Shown one piece after another: positions 343 through 49,676 of a stretch of DNA of 64,000 bases. A program made the position numbers and the translations under genes. Numbering within the stretch: the stretch's first letter is position 1; each line of letters starts with the position of its first letter. This DNA comes from Bacteroidales bacterium (GTDB lineage: Bacteria; Bacteroidota; Bacteroidia; Bacteroidales; F082), in the NCBI GenBank assembly GCA_017553625.1, contig JAFZKP010000016.1, positions 84,087 to 148,086 on the forward strand, read 5' to 3'. The notes below the pieces were generated by a model that had not been told where the DNA came from, made no database searches, and was given only the letters and a program-made list of their open reading frames with translations.

Positions 343-1671
343 ATGTTTATGGAAGTTATCGAAAGAGATGTTACCCAAAAATTGCTTGAGTGGAAAAACA
401 GCGTTGACAGAAAGCCTCTTATTATCAGAGGTGCACGACAGATTGGGAAATCATGGGCGGTGGAAGATTTCGGAAACAGATACTATGAAAACCTGGCAGT
501 TTTCAATTTCGACCGTAAGAGGGAGTTGGCTGATGTGTTTCAAAAAACCAAAGACCCGAAACGCATCATCAAAGAGTTGGCGTTTTACACCGACAAGCCT
601 ATCCTACCAGAAAAAACACTTATTTTCTTCGATGAGATTCAAGAATGCAAGGAAGCGCTGAACGCATTGAAATATTTTTGCGAGGACGCTCCCGAATATC
701 ATATCATCGCGGCGGGTTCGTTGCTTGGCGTGGCTATCAATGAAGGTAATTATTCATTTCCTGTGGGCAAAGTGAATTTTCTTCAGATGTATCCGGTCAG
801 TTTTAAAGAATTTCTTCGCGCAGCTGACGGTTTGTTATTTGATCAAATTGCCGGTTTTACCGGAAAAACAGAGCCTCTTCCGTCTATCGTTTTCAATAAA
901 GCCGAAGAACTGTATCATGCCTATCAGGTTAGTGGAGGTCTGCCATTATCGGCTGCTGCCATGATTTGGAATAAGGGTTTAAATGCGGTTGAAAAAATTC
1001 TTGATGAGAATCTGACGGCATACGAAATAGATTTCAGCAAGCATACACTTCAACCTGATATTCCTAAAATCCGCGCAATCTGGAAATCGACACCCGAGCA
1101 GCTTTCGCGAGAAAACAACAAATTTGTGTATCGTGTCGTGCGTGAAGGCGCAAGGGCACGTGAATACGAGAACGCCTTGCAATGGCTTATTGCTGCAGGC
1201 ATGATATACCAGATAAAGCTTTGCGAAAAGCCCGAATTGCCTTTGAGTTTTTATGAAAACTCCTCGGCTTTTAAGGTCTATATGATTGATATTGGGCTGC
1301 TCAGGAAGTTAGCAAAACTTCCAGCTGAGATATTTGTCAGTGCCACTAACCTGTTCACGGAATTCAAGGGAGCCATAGCTGAGAATTTTGTTCTGACATC
1401 GTTGTTGGCGCAGGGTTTCGATACGCCAAACTATTGGACATTGCAGGGTAACAAGGCGGAAGTTGATTTTCTGGTTGCCGACAAGTTGTCTGTTATCCCA
1501 ATTGAAGTGAAATCAGACCGGCGCATAAGTGGAAAAAGCTTTGCCGAATACGACAAGAAATATCATCCTGACTTACGCATCCGTTTCTCAATGAACAACA
1601 TCAAAAAAGACGGCAATCTTTTGAATCTTCCGGTTTTCATGGCTGATTGGGTGAGGGAGTATTTGAATTAA
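343..1671 (+). CDS. AAA-family ATPase with C-terminal DUF4143 nuclease-like domain
   Basis: The 442-residue protein starts with an AAA_14-type P-loop ATPase: Walker A GARQIGKS around residues 30-37 and Walker B LIFFDE ending near residue 98. The C-terminal DUF4143 region carries D375, E388 and K390 (VDFLV then IEVK), the D...ExK arrangement of PD-(D/E)XK nuclease folds. Proteins of this type are abundant in Bacteroidota and archaea and their function is unknown. An in-frame ATG two codons downstream is an alternative start. It belongs to a different subfamily from the paralogs at 5590 and 14725 (GARQIGKS versus GPKWCGKT Walker A). It is monocistronic. A CRP-like palindrome and a -7 box precede it. 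Confidence 0.85.
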   Translation: MFMEVIERDVTQKLLEWKNSVDRKPLIIRGARQIGKSWAVEDFGNRYYENLAVFNFDRKRELADVFQKTKDPKRIIKELAFYTDKPILPEKTLIFFDEIQECKEALNALKYFCEDAPEYHIIAAGSLLGVAINEGNYSFPVGKVNFLQMYPVSFKEFLRAADGLLFDQIAGFTGKTEPLPSIVFNKAEELYHAYQVSGGLPLSAAAMIWNKGLNAVEKILDENLTAYEIDFSKHTLQPDIPKIRAIWKSTPEQLSRENNKFVYRVVREGARAREYENALQWLIAAGMIYQIKLCEKPELPLSFYENSSAFKVYMIDIGLLRKLAKLPAEIFVSATNLFTEFKGAIAENFVLTSLLAQGFDTPNYWTLQGNKAEVDFLVADKLSVIPIEVKSDRRISGKSFAEYDKKYHPDLRIRFSMNNIKKDGNLLNLPVFMADWVREYLN

Positions 1672-4125: not shown

Positions 4126-5307
4126 ATGAAACAATATAATCGCATCATGCTGGGCAGAGGTTGCATGTATGCCAAAGAGTGCCGCACAGAAGGTTATATC
4201 GGTTGTGATTTTGAACTTAAGCATGATTTGTCTGATTATTTGTATGATAATTGGAGAGATTTTAATAAGAAATTTATTCCTCAATTGATGGCTATAGCGA
4301 CAGGCAGAACTAAAGTATCAGTAGGTTTAGAGTGCGGTTTTGTTTGGACAATTGCCAAAGGGTTACAGATAGGAGATGTAGTCCTTTGTCCTTCTGGTGA
4401 AGGCTACTATTATGTTGGCACTATCACTAGCGATTACTACTATGTTCCAGACTCTAATTTGCCTCATCGAAGAAAAGTTAAATGGATTGAGCAGGTGATA
4501 TATCGTAAGAGTATGTCAACTGGATTGAAAAATTCGTCAGGCTCAATTGGTACTTGCTGCAACATTACTCGTTATGCAGACGAAATTGAAGCTTTGATTG
4601 CTGGAAAATCATATACGGCTCCAGAACAAACGGTGGACAATGTTGTTTTACCTTCCAAGAGTTTTGATGAGCGTTCACTCCACAAATTGTTTTGCAATTT
4701 CCTGCGCAGTAGAGGCATATATGCCAAAACAATTTATCACGAGAAATCATCGAATAAGGTTGATAGCGCCCAGAAATGGGTTCATCCTGATATTATAGGT
4801 GTTCAGTTTGAGGACTTTAATAATGAAGCGACATTGTCGTTGATGATGGCAGCAGATCCTAAAAAATCGATGCACATCTATTCGTATGAGATGAAACGCC
4901 ACATCGAAAATGATAGTCAATTAAAGCAGTACTATTTCCAAGCTCTTTCAAACAGCAGCTGGGCAAACTTCGGATATTTGGTGGCTTTTGAAATTGCTGA
5001 CGGATTGGATGAAGAAATGCAGCGTTTAAACAATGCTTTTGGAATTGGCATTATTTTGATGCAGGCTACCGAAGCGACAATTCTTTATCCGGCTCGTGAA
5101 AAATCTCTCGATTATGTCACAATTGAAAAGTTAAGCACCATCAACAAACAATTTTGTGAGTTTATCAGCAAATTGGCAAAGGTGCTGCATGCTTCAAAAG
5201 ATTACACTGATGTGGCACGTGATTCGTTGATTGCAATCTGCGACAAAGTGTTTGAGACTGACGAAGAAATTGAGAAGTATTGTAAAGAACATAATATTCC
5301 GTTCTGA
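4126..5307 (+). CDS. Putative modification-dependent restriction protein (HrgA/COG2958-like)
   Basis: The 393-residue protein has two parts. The N-terminal half (about residues 1-130: YAKEC, GYIGCDF, WRDFNKKFIP, then GDVVLCPSGEGYYYVG and SDYYY) follows a PUA/EVE-like pattern seen at the front of restriction-type proteins and may read modified bases. The C-terminal half has YHEKSS, VHPDIIGV, YSYEMK and SSWANFGYLVA; P-D-I followed by E-M-K fits a PD-(D/E)XK nuclease core. It resembles COG2958/HrgA proteins, which occupy restriction loci in some bacteria. No methyltransferase is adjacent, as expected for a type IV-like enzyme. The domain reading is from motifs only; nuclease activity is inference. 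Confidence 0.6.
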   Translation: MKQYNRIMLGRGCMYAKECRTEGYIGCDFELKHDLSDYLYDNWRDFNKKFIPQLMAIATGRTKVSVGLECGFVWTIAKGLQIGDVVLCPSGEGYYYVGTITSDYYYVPDSNLPHRRKVKWIEQVIYRKSMSTGLKNSSGSIGTCCNITRYADEIEALIAGKSYTAPEQTVDNVVLPSKSFDERSLHKLFCNFLRSRGIYAKTIYHEKSSNKVDSAQKWVHPDIIGVQFEDFNNEATLSLMMAADPKKSMHIYSYEMKRHIENDSQLKQYYFQALSNSSWANFGYLVAFEIADGLDEEMQRLNNAFGIGIILMQATEATILYPAREKSLDYVTIEKLSTINKQFCEFISKLAKVLHASKDYTDVARDSLIAICDKVFETDEEIEKYCKEHNIPF

Positions 5308-5510: not shown

Positions 5511-5579
5511 ATTCGGCACTTTGGCGAAAAATCGTTCGGCGAGTTGGCGCATTTTCATTTGGGAACTTGGCAAAATTAT
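5511..5579 (+). repeat. Three tandem 23-nt units downstream of DUF4143 ATPase
   Basis: Three consecutive 23-nt units at 5511-5533, 5534-5556 and 5557-5579, each with a TTcGGc/TTgGGa...TTGGC core followed by an A/T-rich tail. The tract 5521-5571 is identical over 51 nt to 6953-7003 on the other side of the gene. The first unit here looks like a fusion of the first two units of the larger array, as after loss of one repeat. Confidence 0.85.
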
Positions 5580-5589
5580 GCCATGCAAC

Positions 5590-6876
5590 TTAATCCCTCA
5601 AGCACCCTACAGGTACCACATAAACGCCGTCCTCTCTTCTGAATGCATATGGTCCGACTGCAGTTAAAACCATCATAAATGCTGGCGATTTCATCTTCGT
5701 GGTGTCTATTTTGTTGCTAAGCTTCAAAAGACTTTGGACACCTTCGTTAATCAGTTGGTCGCCACCAAGTTTGATTTCGACAAGACCATAGGAGCCATTG
5801 CGAAGATGAACAACAGCATCGCACTCCAACTTGTCTTTGTCACGATAATGATAAACTTTGCCATCAATGGCATCAGCAAAAACACGCAAATCACGGACAC
5901 ACAGTGTCTCGAAAATCAGACCAAAGGTGTTCAAGTCATTAATCAAATCGTTCGGACCCAATCCTAAAGCAGCCGTTGCAATTGATGGGTCAACAAAATA
6001 GCGGTTGTCGGATGTCCTGATGGCCGTTTTTGAACGCAAGTTTGGGTTCCAAGCAGGCATGTCTTCGACAACATAAATTTTATTCAACGCTTTAAGATAT
6101 GTAGCTACAGAATCTTCGCTAAAAGAAGTCAATTCATTGGCTTTCATGTCATCTCTCAACGTTGTCAAGGCTGCTTGAGTGCCTTGATGACGAGCATACG
6201 AGCGCAACAGACGTCGCACTTGTTCTGGATCCTTATGAACATTATCTGCCGCTGAAATGTCGGTTTCGGCAACTATATCTACATAATCAAAAGCTTGATC
6301 TAAAGCAATGCTTTTATCCATGTCTAATGTGTCTGGCCAGCCGCCTCGGCATGTCAAATATGCGATATCTTGTAAGTTGAGTTCGCATGTTCCGGCAATG
6401 CGCTCTGGTGTTTTGAACAACTCCGCCAAACTTACCATTCCATTTGAGTCGCCCGATTCCCACAAACTCATTGGTCGCATGACGATATGTCCGATACGTC
6501 CAGCTCCTGAATGATGGATCTGTGGCTTACCATCCACGCCATCTTTTACAACAACGGAGCCTGTAAGGATGAAATGTCCGTGTCCTTTGCGGTGATCTAC
6601 TTCAAAACGCACAGCATCCCATAACACAGGAGCCTCTTGCCATTCGTCAATGAGTCGCGGTGTGGGTCCGTCGAGAATAAAATGCGGGTCAACATTCGCC
6701 AACTTGATGTTTTGTTCGCGAGTCTTTGTATCGCCCATATAAAGAACGCTTTGGGCAATTTGCTCGGCTGATGTGGTTTTTCCACACCATTTCGGACCTT
6801 TAATCAACACGGCGCCTTTGCCTGCCAGCTTCCTTTTCAGCAATTCATCGACAATTCTAGGTCTATACGTATCCAT
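5590..6876 (-). CDS. AAA-family ATPase with C-terminal DUF4143 nuclease-like domain, flanked by 23-nt arrays
   Basis: The 428-residue protein has Walker A GPKWCGKT at residues 27-34 and RLIDEWQEAP (Walker B-like DE at 75-76). A helical middle follows, then a C-terminal DUF4143 domain with CDAVV (D353) and VEIK (E367, K369) forming a D...ExK nuclease-like motif. It is clearly paralogous to the gene at 14725 (same Walker A, LTGS, MSLWES and CRGGWP motifs). The ATG at 6876 was chosen over an upstream GTG because the -7 box lies at 6896-6903. Five 23-nt units lie upstream and three downstream, so gene and arrays form a discrete cassette. Function is unknown; ATP-driven nuclease activity is inference. 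Confidence 0.85.
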   Translation of the reverse strand: MDTYRPRIVDELLKRKLAGKGAVLIKGPKWCGKTTSAEQIAQSVLYMGDTKTREQNIKLANVDPHFILDGPTPRLIDEWQEAPVLWDAVRFEVDHRKGHGHFILTGSVVVKDGVDGKPQIHHSGAGRIGHIVMRPMSLWESGDSNGMVSLAELFKTPERIAGTCELNLQDIAYLTCRGGWPDTLDMDKSIALDQAFDYVDIVAETDISAADNVHKDPEQVRRLLRSYARHQGTQAALTTLRDDMKANELTSFSEDSVATYLKALNKIYVVEDMPAWNPNLRSKTAIRTSDNRYFVDPSIATAALGLGPNDLINDLNTFGLIFETLCVRDLRVFADAIDGKVYHYRDKDKLECDAVVHLRNGSYGLVEIKLGGDQLINEGVQSLLKLSNKIDTTKMKSPAFMMVLTAVGPYAFRREDGVYVVPVGCLRD

Positions 6877-6895
6877 TGTTATAGTTTTCACGCTG

Positions 6896-6903
6896 CAAAA
6901 ATA
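6896..6903 (-). promoter_or_regulatory. -7 promoter element of the flanked DUF4143 gene
   Basis: On the minus strand the sequence reads TATTTTTG, about 20 nt before the ATG. The region where a -33 TTG and operators would sit is filled by the 23-nt array, which may itself be the regulatory site. Confidence 0.5.
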
Positions 6904-6919
6904 ACACTTTTTTTAATCC

Positions 6920-7034
6920 GTTCGGCACTTTGGCTGAATTTTGTTCGGCGAGTTGGCGAAAAATCGTTCGGCGAGTTGGCGCATTTTCATTTGGGAACTT
7001 GGCTTATTTTTGCTTGGGAACTTGGCCGGTTTTT
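6920..7034 (+). repeat. Five tandem 23-nt units upstream of DUF4143 ATPase
   Basis: Units at 6920-6942, 6943-6965, 6966-6988, 6989-7011 and 7012-7034, all exactly 23 nt. Units 2 and 3 share their first 16 bases (GTTCGGCGAGTTGGCG); units 4 and 5 share TTGGGAACTTGGC. There are no spacers, so this is a tandem array and not CRISPR. Its upper end runs into the 3' end of the permease gene and supplies that gene's stop region. Confidence 0.85.
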
Positions 7035-14575: not shown

Positions 14576-14667
14576 CGCAAAAATAGAAAACAAAATGCCA
14601 CAAAAATAGAAAGTAAAACACCGCAAAAATAGAAAACAAAATGCCACAAAAATAGAAAATAGAGTTG
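14576..14667 (+). repeat. Four tandem 23-nt units upstream of the second DUF4143 paralog
   Basis: Units at 14576-14598, 14599-14621, 14622-14644 and 14645-14667, each exactly 23 nt with the core CAAAAATAGAAA. Units 1 and 3 are identical. The last unit ends in the TTG of the promoter at 14665. The sequence is unlike the array at 6920-7034, but the period and the position before a DUF4143 gene are the same. Confidence 0.85.
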
Positions 14668-14724: not shown

Positions 14725-16017
14725 ATGAGTTATTTGAGAAGAACTGCTGATGCCGTGTTGGAATTGTACTTGGAGGCTTTCGGGGCAATATTGATTGAAG
14801 GTCCGAAGTGGTGCGGAAAGACCACCACAGCCGAACAGGTGGCCAAGAGTGTGATAAAACTGCAAGACCCGGATATGCGCAACGAATATTTGGCGACTGC
14901 TGAAACAAAGCCGTCGTTGTTGCTAAATGGTGCAAACCCTCGTTTGATTGACGAATGGCAGGATGCTCCTGTGTTGTGGGATACGGTGAGGACTACAGTT
15001 GACAACAGACGTGATCAGGGATTGTTTATACTGACCGGCTCGAACGCCGTAAAGAAAGACAAAATACGTCATTCGGGCAACAGCAGAATAGCAAAGATGG
15101 ACATGATTCCGATGAGTTTGTGGGAATCGCAGGAGTCGAACGGAAAGATTTCGTTGAAAGAGTTGTTTGACAATCCAAACATTGACATTGACGGAATAGA
15201 ATCGGATATGACGATTGAAGATTTGATTTTCAGTGCGTGCAGAGGCGGATGGCCAGGCTCGTTGAATATCAAAACAGACCGTGCCAAGTTGCTTATAGCG
15301 AAAAATTATGTAAAAACAGTATGCTCAGAAGATATAAACAGAGTTGATGGTGTGCAGCGTGATGAGTTGCTGACAAAGATGATATTGCGCTCGTATGCGA
15401 GAAATATCTCAACATTGGCAAAGAAATCGTCGCTCATCGCTGACGTGACCGCGTCGGGTGAGGTGTCGTGCACGGCACCGACGTTTGATGATTATGTTGG
15501 TGCACTTAAGAAATTGTTTGTTATTTGTGATGTTGAGGCTTGGTGTCCGGCCATCAGAAGCAAAAGTGCTATCAGAAGCGGCGTGAAGCGTGCGTTTGTT
15601 GACCCGTCGATAGCAGTGGCAGCATTGAATTTAACACCAGAGGCACTGATGGTTCAACTTAATACTTTCGGTTTTATATTTGAACAGATGTGTATTCGTG
15701 ACCTTAAGGCATATACGCTTGATGCTGATACACATGTGTCGTATTATCATGACAGATATGACTTGGAAGCTGACTGGGTGTTACATCTTGGCGATGGCCG
15801 TTATGCTTTGATAGAATGCAAACTCGGAAGCAAAGAGATTGAGGATGGTGCAAAACATCTTGTAGAGATTAAAGAGCTTATCAGGAAACACAACAAAGAA
15901 GAGAATCAGTTGCCGTTGCGAGAACCTGATTTGATGATGGTGTTGACAGGTGGAAAAATGGCATACACAAGGCCTGACGGAGTGAAGATAGTTCCGCTGG
16001 GATGCTTGAAGGAATAG
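14725..16017 (+). CDS. AAA-family ATPase with C-terminal DUF4143 nuclease-like domain
   Basis: This 430-residue protein is a paralog of the one at 5590: Walker A GPKWCGKT (residues 26-33), RLIDEWQDAP, LTGSNAVKKD, PMSLWES, CRGGWPGSL. The C-terminal DUF4143 domain carries ADWVL (D350) and IECK (E364, K366), again a D...ExK nuclease-like arrangement. The start is set by the promoter 31 nt upstream. Four 23-nt repeats lie directly before that promoter. It ends near a bidirectional terminator shared with dnaK. The cellular role is not known. Confidence 0.85.
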   Translation: MSYLRRTADAVLELYLEAFGAILIEGPKWCGKTTTAEQVAKSVIKLQDPDMRNEYLATAETKPSLLLNGANPRLIDEWQDAPVLWDTVRTTVDNRRDQGLFILTGSNAVKKDKIRHSGNSRIAKMDMIPMSLWESQESNGKISLKELFDNPNIDIDGIESDMTIEDLIFSACRGGWPGSLNIKTDRAKLLIAKNYVKTVCSEDINRVDGVQRDELLTKMILRSYARNISTLAKKSSLIADVTASGEVSCTAPTFDDYVGALKKLFVICDVEAWCPAIRSKSAIRSGVKRAFVDPSIAVAALNLTPEALMVQLNTFGFIFEQMCIRDLKAYTLDADTHVSYYHDRYDLEADWVLHLGDGRYALIECKLGSKEIEDGAKHLVEIKELIRKHNKEENQLPLREPDLMMVLTGGKMAYTRPDGVKIVPLGCLKE

Positions 16018-20043: not shown

Positions 20044-20150
20044 AGTTAGTCAGTTAGCCAGTTAATCAGTTAGTCAGTTAAAACTGAACAACTGAATAAC
20101 TGAACAACTGAATAACTGAATAACTGAACAACTGAATAACTGAATAACTT
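20044..20150 (+). repeat. 8-nt-period inverted tandem repeat, copy E1
   Basis: Left half 20044-20080: about 4.5 units of AGTTAGTC-type octamers. Right half 20082-20149: 8.5 units of AACTGAAC/AACTGAAT. The halves are roughly complementary, so the whole can fold into a long imperfect hairpin. It ends at the TTG start codon of the next gene. A related copy lies at 49590-49676. Confidence 0.85.
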
Positions 20151-20829: not shown

Positions 20830-20984
20830 TGTGTCACTCACTTCGTTCGTGAAATGTGCTGCTTCGCAGAATGTGCCGCTTCGCGGAATGTGGAGGCTTT
20901 GCCTCATGGCCGAAGGCCACACATTGCGACCAAAGGGAGCATCACATTCAGCCGCAGCCTGCACATTTGCCGCAGGCACACATT
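20828..20984. repeat. AATGTG mini-hairpin block A
   Basis: A series of AATGTG spacers separating tiny hairpins with 3-nt loops: CTGCTTCGCAG, CCGCTTCGCGG, GAGGCTTTGCCTC, then, with spacers now reading CACATT, CAGCCGCAGCCTG and TGCCGCAGGCA. The left half points one way and the right half the other, so the block is one large cruciform of small stems. It lies between convergent genes. Confidence 0.85.
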
Positions 20985-22068: not shown

Positions 22069-22080
22069 GGATTAATTTGT

Positions 22081-22224
22081 TGCTGCGCAAAATGTGTTAC
22101 TACGCATAATGTGCCGCTTCGCGGAATGTGGAGGCTTTGCCTCATGGCCGAAGGCCACACATTGCGACCAAAGGGAGCATCACATTGTTGCGAAGCGACC
22201 ACATCACGCGAAGCGTGTCACATT
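22081..22224. repeat. AATGTG mini-hairpin block B
   Basis: Same architecture as block A. From CCGCTTCGCGG through the central CACATT it matches block A exactly over about 75 nt. The outer units differ (TTGCTGCGCAA, ACGCGAAGCGT). It separates the LRR gene from the M56 gene. Confidence 0.85.
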
Positions 22225-24170: not shown

Positions 24171-24319
24171 AATGTTTCACTTCGTGAAATGTGCTGCTTC
24201 GCAGAATTTGCCGCTTCGCGGAATGTGGAGACTTCGCCTTATTGGCCGGAGACCACACATTGCGACCGTAGGGAGCACACATTCAGCTGAAGGCTGCACA
24301 TTTGCCGAAGGCACACATT
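24171..24319. repeat. AATGTG mini-hairpin block C
   Basis: A diverged copy of the block A architecture (CTGCTTCGCAG, CCGCTTCGCGG, then CAGCTGAAGGCTG, TGCCGAAGGCA), lying between the BlaI-like repressor gene and the M56 gene. If the two genes share a transcript, the block would be in its middle. Confidence 0.8.
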
Positions 24320-24323
24320 TTTA

Positions 24324-25739: not shown

Positions 25740-25943
25740 TGTCACTCCCTTCGGTCGTGAAATGTGCTGCTTTGCAGAATATGTTGCTTCGCAAAATTTG
25801 TTGCCTTTGGCAACCACATTCAGCCGCAGGCTGCACATTGCCCGAAGGGCATCACATTGGAGCGAAGCGGCCACATTGCGAAGCATCACATTGGAGCGAA
25901 GCGACAACATTGCGAAGCATCACATTGCGCGTAGCGCCACATT
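25740..25943. repeat. AATGTG mini-hairpin block D
   Basis: Longest of the four blocks (about 200 nt): units such as CTGCTTTGCAG, TTGCTTCGCAA, TTGCCTTTGGCAA, CAGCCGCAGGCTG and several GCGAAGC hairpins between CACATT spacers. Its lower-strand end enters the S41 peptidase gene and provides its last seven codons and stop. Confidence 0.85.
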
Positions 25944-49589: not shown

Positions 49590-49676
49590 AGTTAGTCAGT
49601 TAGTCAGTTGATCAGTTAGTCAGTTAAAGGACGGCTGAATAACTGCACAACTGAATAACTGCACAACTGAACAACT
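49590..49676 (+). repeat. 8-nt-period inverted tandem repeat, copy E2
   Basis: Left half 49590-49626 of AGTTAGTC-type octamers, right half 49635-49676 of AACTGCAC/AACTGAAT octamers. It has the same design as E1 at 20044-20150. It ends one base before the ATG of the U32 peptidase gene. Confidence 0.85.

Follow-up and report, generated by a model that had tools for sequence, protein, structure and literature searches.

The gene at the centre of this analysis, a DUF4143 / AAA_14 ATPase-nuclease gene in a 64,000-nucleotide stretch of Bacteroidales DNA (the window), is preceded by a direct array of exactly 23-nt units, and of 183 distinct genes of its kind, the focal one counted, 175 have a best upstream period of exactly 23 when periods of 15-40 nt are compared. 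The letters of the unit vary from gene to gene and track residues 347 and 255 of the encoded protein, which argues that the array is very probably a binding target of the ATPase-nuclease encoded beside it. Judging from sequence, we read the upstream array as a cluster of sites bound by the gene's own product that would set expression of the gene and hold the nuclease, and we give this reading a probability of about 0.6.

The focal gene occupies positions 5590..6876 on the minus strand and was identified by its Pfam and PADLOC matches, its invariant residues and its start and stop codons. Its product, with the Walker A motif GPKWCGKT, carries an AAA_14 domain (Pfam E 5e-12, 46.4 bits against a curated cut-off of 27) followed by a DUF4143 domain (E 2e-32, 112.5 bits against a cut-off of 28.1). 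Residues 1-426 match the PADLOC PDC-S01 profile PDLC04790 (E 8e-60), and the gene is thereby matched to the phage-defence candidate family PDC-S01. Alignment with relatives places the start codon at the ATG at 6876, the ORF listing having begun at a GTG at 6891. E323, D353, E367 and K369 were invariant in alignments of 16 and 61 family sequences, and we read them as putative PD-(D/E)XK-type catalytic residues, the fold being taken from the available part of PMC12988326. According to the same part, PDC-S01 joins an ATPase to a PD-(D/E)-X-K member and ranks fourth by frequency among prokaryotic defences, and most such candidates still await experimental validation (PMC12988326); in a rumen survey, as far as its text was available, PDC-S01 was the most frequent individual locus (PMC13356809). 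The open-access literature that was found, available in part, reported no repeat array, self-recognition or cassette boundary for PDC-S01, and a search of that literature for DUF4143 together with a tandem repeat returned no report. The family profile matched no solved structure at E<=0.01; PHROG gave no match at E<=0.01 and NCBIfam none above its cut-off.

The upstream array lies at 6920..7034 on the promoter side of the gene and consists of five units of exactly 23 nt on the plus strand, each made of a core of the type TTCGGCGAGTTGGC and an AT-rich linker, the fifth unit being clear in its core only. Three further 23-nt units in the order A-B-C lie beyond the stop codon at 5511..5579, also on the plus strand, and both arrays are direct with their cores on the strand opposite the gene. 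The lag-23 self-match score of the upstream array was 42, compared with at most 11 at any lag of 15-40 in 30 dinucleotide shuffles, which excludes chance for this array; the downstream array scored 13. The layout given by the original prediction, five units on one side and three on the other in direct orientation, was re-derived in full. The 51-nt identity that it had seen between the two arrays is real, and its view of the first downstream unit as the core of upstream unit 1 joined to the linker of upstream unit 2 was borne out. A −7-like promoter box, TATTTTTG at 6896..6903 on the minus strand, matches TAnnTTTG and sits between the upstream array and the start codon.

Two other DUF4143 genes are present in the window, and all three proteins match PADLOC PDC-S01. 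The second, at 14725..16017 on the plus strand, shares the GPKWCGKT motif, is 47% identical to the focal protein and has its own 23-nt array of other letters (CTATTTTTG type) at 14578..14659 on the minus strand. The third, at 343..1671 on the plus strand, is of a GARQIGKS branch. In the source genome (2.47 Mb, 52 contigs) there are 22 DUF4143 matches, 21 of them above cut-off. Five of its genes are of the GPKxCGKT type, two of these within the window, and all five have a 23-nt repetition just upstream, with differing letters. One of the five repetitions is weak (L004), with a score of 13 where its shuffles reach 12 and with no row in Tandem Repeats Finder; at another (L003) a separate 33-nt repeat outscores the 23-nt array. 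This 33-nt array (TTGGTTACAGACAACAC type), seen from -238 to -144 of the C43 gene (L003/L016), lies outside the 23-nt array and is perhaps that of another gene.

Several side observations concern the surroundings of these genes. The gene at 4126-5307, a neighbour of the focal gene, matches another PADLOC phage-defence candidate, PDC-S02, and this part of the window may therefore form a small cluster of defence genes. Two arrays at 20044-20149 and 49590-49676, built of 8-nt units (AGTTAGTC and AACTGAAT), are far apart and mutually alike, and a similar repeat lies upstream of a DUF4143 gene in the source genome (L032). Repeats of 17 and 34 nt around GCGAAGC / AATGTG occur at 25849-25943, 24180-24320, 20853-20892 and 22074-22113.

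Relatives were drawn from 149 genomes of the family, 56 of them with a match at E<=1e-60, as well as from named genomes (80 of at least 589) and viral contigs (7); 30 loci, then 80 regions and then 20 more were taken in, among the matches listed. Many of the sampled genomes are metagenome assemblies. Genes entered the survey with at least 150 nt of upstream sequence, and the final 183 exclude loci L006-L035 (repeats of the same genes, pattern matches and other DUF4143 genes), 7 duplicate proteins, 3 loci lacking a recognised gene, 2 N-masked loci and 6 with short upstream sequence. A lag-23 score of 14 or more was reached upstream in 174/183 genes, compared with 2/179 downstream and 0/183 in shuffled sequence (best of five shuffles each), and the mean upstream score was 47.6 at lag 23 versus 5.3-6.2 at the remaining lags from 18 to 28. 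Five of the eight genes with another best period still scored 25-51 at lag 23, beside a stronger, unlike repeat; the nine genes below the cut-off of 14 had lag-23 scores of 3-13. Homologs without a nearby array had been named in the original prediction as the finding that would speak against it, and the survey came out the other way.

The period also held beyond this set, being the best one in 32/33 further loci. The records of the relatives name Bacteroidales, Clostridia, Treponema, Gardnerella, Fibrobacter and others, many of them metagenome assemblies, and 13 of 14 loci from plasmids or phage collections had a best period of 23, the phage-collection records being unverified contigs without annotation. 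These 13 include loci from Prosthecochloris (30% identity) and Lentilactobacillus (28%). The two most distant of the 14, from Actinomyces (best period 23) and Marinobacter (best period 22), did not rise above their shuffles. A homologue on a B. ovatus plasmid (NZ_CP041396.1) is 67% identical.

Read on the strand opposite the gene, the aligned unit is TTCGGTAATTTGGC followed by a 9-nt AT-rich linker, that is, a 14-nt core plus 9 nt, 23 nt in total. Most information lies at unit positions 10-12 (TTG) and 2, and the most variable core positions are 3, 4, 6, 7 and 9. The number of units has a median of 3.7 and ranges from 1.8 to 9.3. Array orientation relative to the gene was identical in 171/174 genes, as scored with a matrix built from the same loci and strand. 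A CRISPR-like array was ruled out on this anatomy. The array ends a median of 64 nt from the start codon. TAnnTTTG is the Bacteroidota −7 promoter consensus, and such a box was found between array and start codon in 133/174 genes, compared with 7% of shuffled spacers; as judged by this consensus box alone, the repeats adjoin the gene's own promoter. With the array ending a median of 34 nt upstream of the box, the gap would suit activation, looping repression or mere assembly equally well.

A second class of arrays was observed in the same superfamily, upstream of GARQ-type DUF4143 genes. With window positions 343-1668 as the query, the best upstream period of this branch (L351-L380, with the short L379 left out) was 32 or 33 in 23/29 loci scored, 17 of which exceeded all 20 shuffles. 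Mean upstream scores were 15.1 and 10.3 at lags 32/33 versus 4.3-6.1 at other lags, and the highest downstream mean was 6.5, at lag 33. The copy in the window itself has a weak array (about 246-319) that is not above its shuffles. The spacings of 23 and 32/33 differ by about one DNA turn.

The main evidence for self-recognition comes from covariation between 173 proteins and their own units (one of 174 dropped as a short protein). By background-corrected mutual information (MI), the top pairs joined residue 347 to unit positions 13/14 (z 18.3/17.3), followed by residue 255 with positions 3/4 (z 12.8/10.6) and residue 241 with position 3 (z 11.0). Residue 347 belongs to the DUF4143 nuclease part and precedes the invariant D353 by six positions, and residues 241 and 255 lie within what looks, from sequence, like a winged helix (around 238-287), a region over which Pfam names DUF4143 alone and no HTH family. 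K347 occurred with G at position 13 in 111/111 genes and with GC at 13-14 in 104/111, while serine at 347 accompanied AG, TG, TA or TT; residue 255 tracked bases 3-5 of the unit.

Among protein pairs 60-70% identical, the 13-14 dinucleotide agreed in 88% of the 4500 that share residue 347 and in 5.5% of the 3553 that differ there, indicating that relatedness does not explain the link. With the candidate columns kept out of the tree, K347 and GC changed on the same branch 19 times versus 1.96 expected, and when the 263 columns with at least 12 changes were ranked, 347 came top for positions 13-14, as did 255 for position 3. In sliding windows, partial correlation with the core peaked in residues 241-267, 277-291, 304-318 and 337-357, and over residues 1-200 it did not exceed about 0.1. 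Two results weigh against this link. Core positions were joined to the AAA part (200 residues) in 32 of the 100 strongest MI pairs, to residues 201-300 in 35 and to residues 331-428 in 10. Whole-protein identity gave Spearman coefficients of 0.33 with the core, 0.11 with the variable positions 3-9 and 0.11 with the linker; it fits positions 3-9 no better than the linker, and the case thus rests on a few residues.

A held-out set of 33 loci, with L400 excluded as already in training and 2 weak arrays not counted, was scored by the strict rule that K347 means GC at 13-14 and any other residue does not. The rule was right in 25/31 genes with clear arrays. The six misses, at 45-48% identity and with the phase well set, comprised four K347 proteins with GA and two R347 proteins with GC. 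Where the array was clear, G13 was present in all 10 held-out K347 genes, a set that includes near-copies of one another, compared with 7/21 genes having another residue at 347. That the array might be the ATPase's own binding site had been put forward in the original prediction as a guess, and this residue-base covariation strongly supports it.

On the mechanism that we propose, the two halves of each 23-bp unit would be read by different parts of the protein, the variable one by the putative winged helix and the TTGGC one by a nuclease-domain loop at residue 347. Several protomers might then oligomerise side by side on the direct units, which are spaced by two helical turns plus about 2 bp and lie next to the promoter, and this assembly would set expression of the gene by autoregulation. 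The array would at the same time be a self-address where a dangerous nuclease is parked. In defence, ATP hydrolysis in the course of phage infection would release or remodel the array-bound protein, ungating the nuclease and letting it act. The array, promoter and ORF would spread among genomes as one module, the array letters and the protein changing jointly. The likely role of the array is then that of a self-addressed operator and assembly site controlling the nuclease.

That array and gene travel together is suggested by comparison of their copies. Close copies at different sites often share only the stretch from array edge to stop codon, and array plus gene thus appears to behave as a mobile cassette. 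Among copy pairs at 75-100% DNA identity, which are non-independent, homology in 62/96 stops on one side at the outer edge of the array and on the other no more than 15 nt from the stop codon; it extends past the cassette in about 20/96, as in same-site orthologs. Between L193 and L194 identity is 98.7% over the stretch that begins at -151 and closes with the stop codon itself (stop+0), the flanks being unrelated, and in L065 (92%) the gene and array are the sole part in common with the window. The outer edge of the upstream array is the cassette edge. The original prediction had taken the gene and both arrays for a single cassette; this stands for the upstream array, which copies elsewhere share, but not for the two-sided arrangement, which is found in 2/179 genes.

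A 97% ortholog of the focal gene in genome G116 (L036) lies in the same place behind an AI-2E transporter gene, without the downstream array. Across 20 other loci with this site (L233-L252), window homology stops exactly at 7030 in nine, the cassette is present in one (L238, G116), a solo three-unit array in one (L237, G081), and no family match was found in 17, among which L245 is short of sequence to judge. Near the AI-2E gene in L251 (G127), another gene of the family, N-terminally truncated, lies in the opposite direction further downstream, so the spot may be used repeatedly. At another insertion, the best empty site (L331, located through separate flank matches) is missing not only the cassette but also some 42 and 46 nt on its two sides. 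When the flanks of eight insertion sites were joined and searched in 99 genomes, no match crossed the junction among the matches listed. No consistent or clear target duplication was found at the inspected sites, of which few offered a usable empty site. A 7-nt repeat at the G116 insert was not accepted as such a duplication, the insert being a 6-kb composite. Elsewhere (L285, L290, L292, L296 and L298), copies of the ~100-nt 3' end of one 174-aa gene (by eye YbaK-like) surround several inserted modules, and the same type of array lies next to these copies; this region looks like an integration or recombination hotspot.

Downstream arrays scored 14 or more at lag 23 in L169 and L221 only, the focal one falling just below the cut-off. 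Arrays of the gene's own type on both sides in the same direction were seen only at the focal locus (L001) and at L169/L299 in G133, and an array-gene-array arrangement as the regular form was ruled out. The array of L221, at +162 to +246 past the gene, is an orphan 23-nt array of another letter type (CTGTTTTTGA), its gene being of a different type. The A-B-C core order of the focal downstream array is that of the solo array in G081, which fits the reading of a scar, and the focal downstream array is probably what remains of a solo array and does not belong to the system as a rule. It could possibly derive from a lost neighbour gene; a gene remnant was sought between 4900 and 5520, with no match at E<=5.

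A two-unit pattern matched 34/99 genomes of the genus (reversed control, 0), and 30 array loci were examined. A family match lay beside the array in 19, including two loci with 3'-end fragments only (L275, L291), four with broken or truncated genes (L269, L274, L279, L286) and one with a gene cut by the contig end (L266); the other 11 gave none at E<=1e-4, and one of these (L288) holds a 3'-end gene remnant at E 0.003. With the remnants of L275, L291 and L288, at least some gene-less arrays appear to be scars of gene loss. Arrays that lack an intact gene, raised in the original prediction as a point against it, do occur, and 3/30 loci keep only a 3'-end remnant.

Could the array be an operator and nothing more? 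Control proteins of restriction-modification systems are precedents for operator-type autoregulation, and the promoter-proximal position of the array fits a purely transcriptional role in which contact with the nuclease loop would be incidental, as does the example of RptR at three direct repeats of a defence-island promoter (available text of PMC12255303). However, the top covarying residue is part of the nuclease domain, a contact beyond what a simple repressor would require, and the exact spacing of 23 or 32/33 in each branch suggests ordered assembly; we regard pure autoregulation as rather doubtful. That the array is instead the working end of a self-mobile element, with the ATPase-nuclease moving array and gene in a TnsA/TnsC-like or homing fashion, would account for the homology ends of those non-independent copy pairs, for AI-2E sites lacking the cassette in related genomes and for the two loci with direct arrays on both sides. 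As in a transposon, the same unit recurs at different sites with defined ends, judged by where homology stops, but matched repeats at both ends are not the rule, nearly all copies carrying repeats at one end only. The inspected sites show no consistent target duplication, the best empty site L331 lacks sequence beyond the cassette and the unit codes for no other protein. Moreover, its sharp boundaries may stem from fast-evolving intergenic flanks and shuttling by host recombination, and we consider self-mobility unlikely.

Direct 23-bp units adjoining the gene of an AAA+ protein with a putative winged helix also resemble iterons, on which an initiator-type protein would act in replication or partition. 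None of 158 intra-genome pairs (98 genome-labelled genes, 35 genomes) was at least 70% identical, which recalls incompatibility, and like copies are perhaps mutually exclusive within a genome, though this result is confounded by orthology between genomes. Single-gene chromosomal cassettes and invariant nuclease residues speak against an iteron, which we regard as very improbable. If the array were a tandem repeat varying neutrally close to a hypermutable promoter, the variation in unit number would be explained. This reading is contradicted by a period and orientation that stay constant across phyla while the letters follow the protein, in the family-wide survey and in the tree-based covariation alike, and is hardly credible.

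We return to the preferred reading, an array bound by the gene's own product. A wider picture, which we offer tentatively as one possibility, is that PDC-S01 is a self-addressed nuclease whose private address would be read by its winged helix as well as its nuclease domain, the AAA+ protein being assembled in a locked state on the phased array and unlocked when infection displaces it, with branches defined by spacing, a code that diversifies so that copies coexist without cross-talk and each copy a single-gene mobile cassette. If self-addressed, many PDC-S01 copies could share one genome in this way. A conserved, self-read array would be the first candidate ligand for PDC-S01 and offers a starting point for asking how a nuclease encoded in the chromosome may be silenced. 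Residues 347 and 255 give an explicit residue-to-base code that is open to mutation, with GC predicted for K347 and AG or TG for serine at bases 13-14, and CGG or CAC for D255 and CCG for E255 at bases 3-5; part of the DNA-binding preference becomes predictable for many genes from one or two residues, and the array period provides a way of sorting family members.

Among known systems, Tn7 has TnsA and TnsC with arrays of TnsB sites at the transposon ends. PDC-S01 resembles it in combining PD-(D/E)XK nuclease and AAA+ functions with a short-repeat array at the edge of the element, but it is one protein with a one-ended array in a unit without a DDE transposase. Iteron-Rep and Orc1/Cdc6 are winged-helix proteins, AAA+ in Orc1/Cdc6, that bind repeats beside their own gene. 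The likeness lies in a putative winged-helix AAA+ protein with repeats next to its gene; by contrast, PDC-S01 has a fused nuclease domain and several mutually different copies per genome. The nearest functional parallel that we found is RptR, which, in the available part of its description, represses a defence-island promoter via three direct repeats (PMC12255303). Both would be defence-locus proteins that bind direct repeats in the promoter of their own locus, binding in PDC-S01 being suggested by covariation. According to the same part, RptR is a regulator of its own, small in size, whose site is a 6-bp palindrome (PMC12255303), whereas in PDC-S01 it is apparently the effector nuclease that does the reading, of a 14-nt core within each 23-nt unit.
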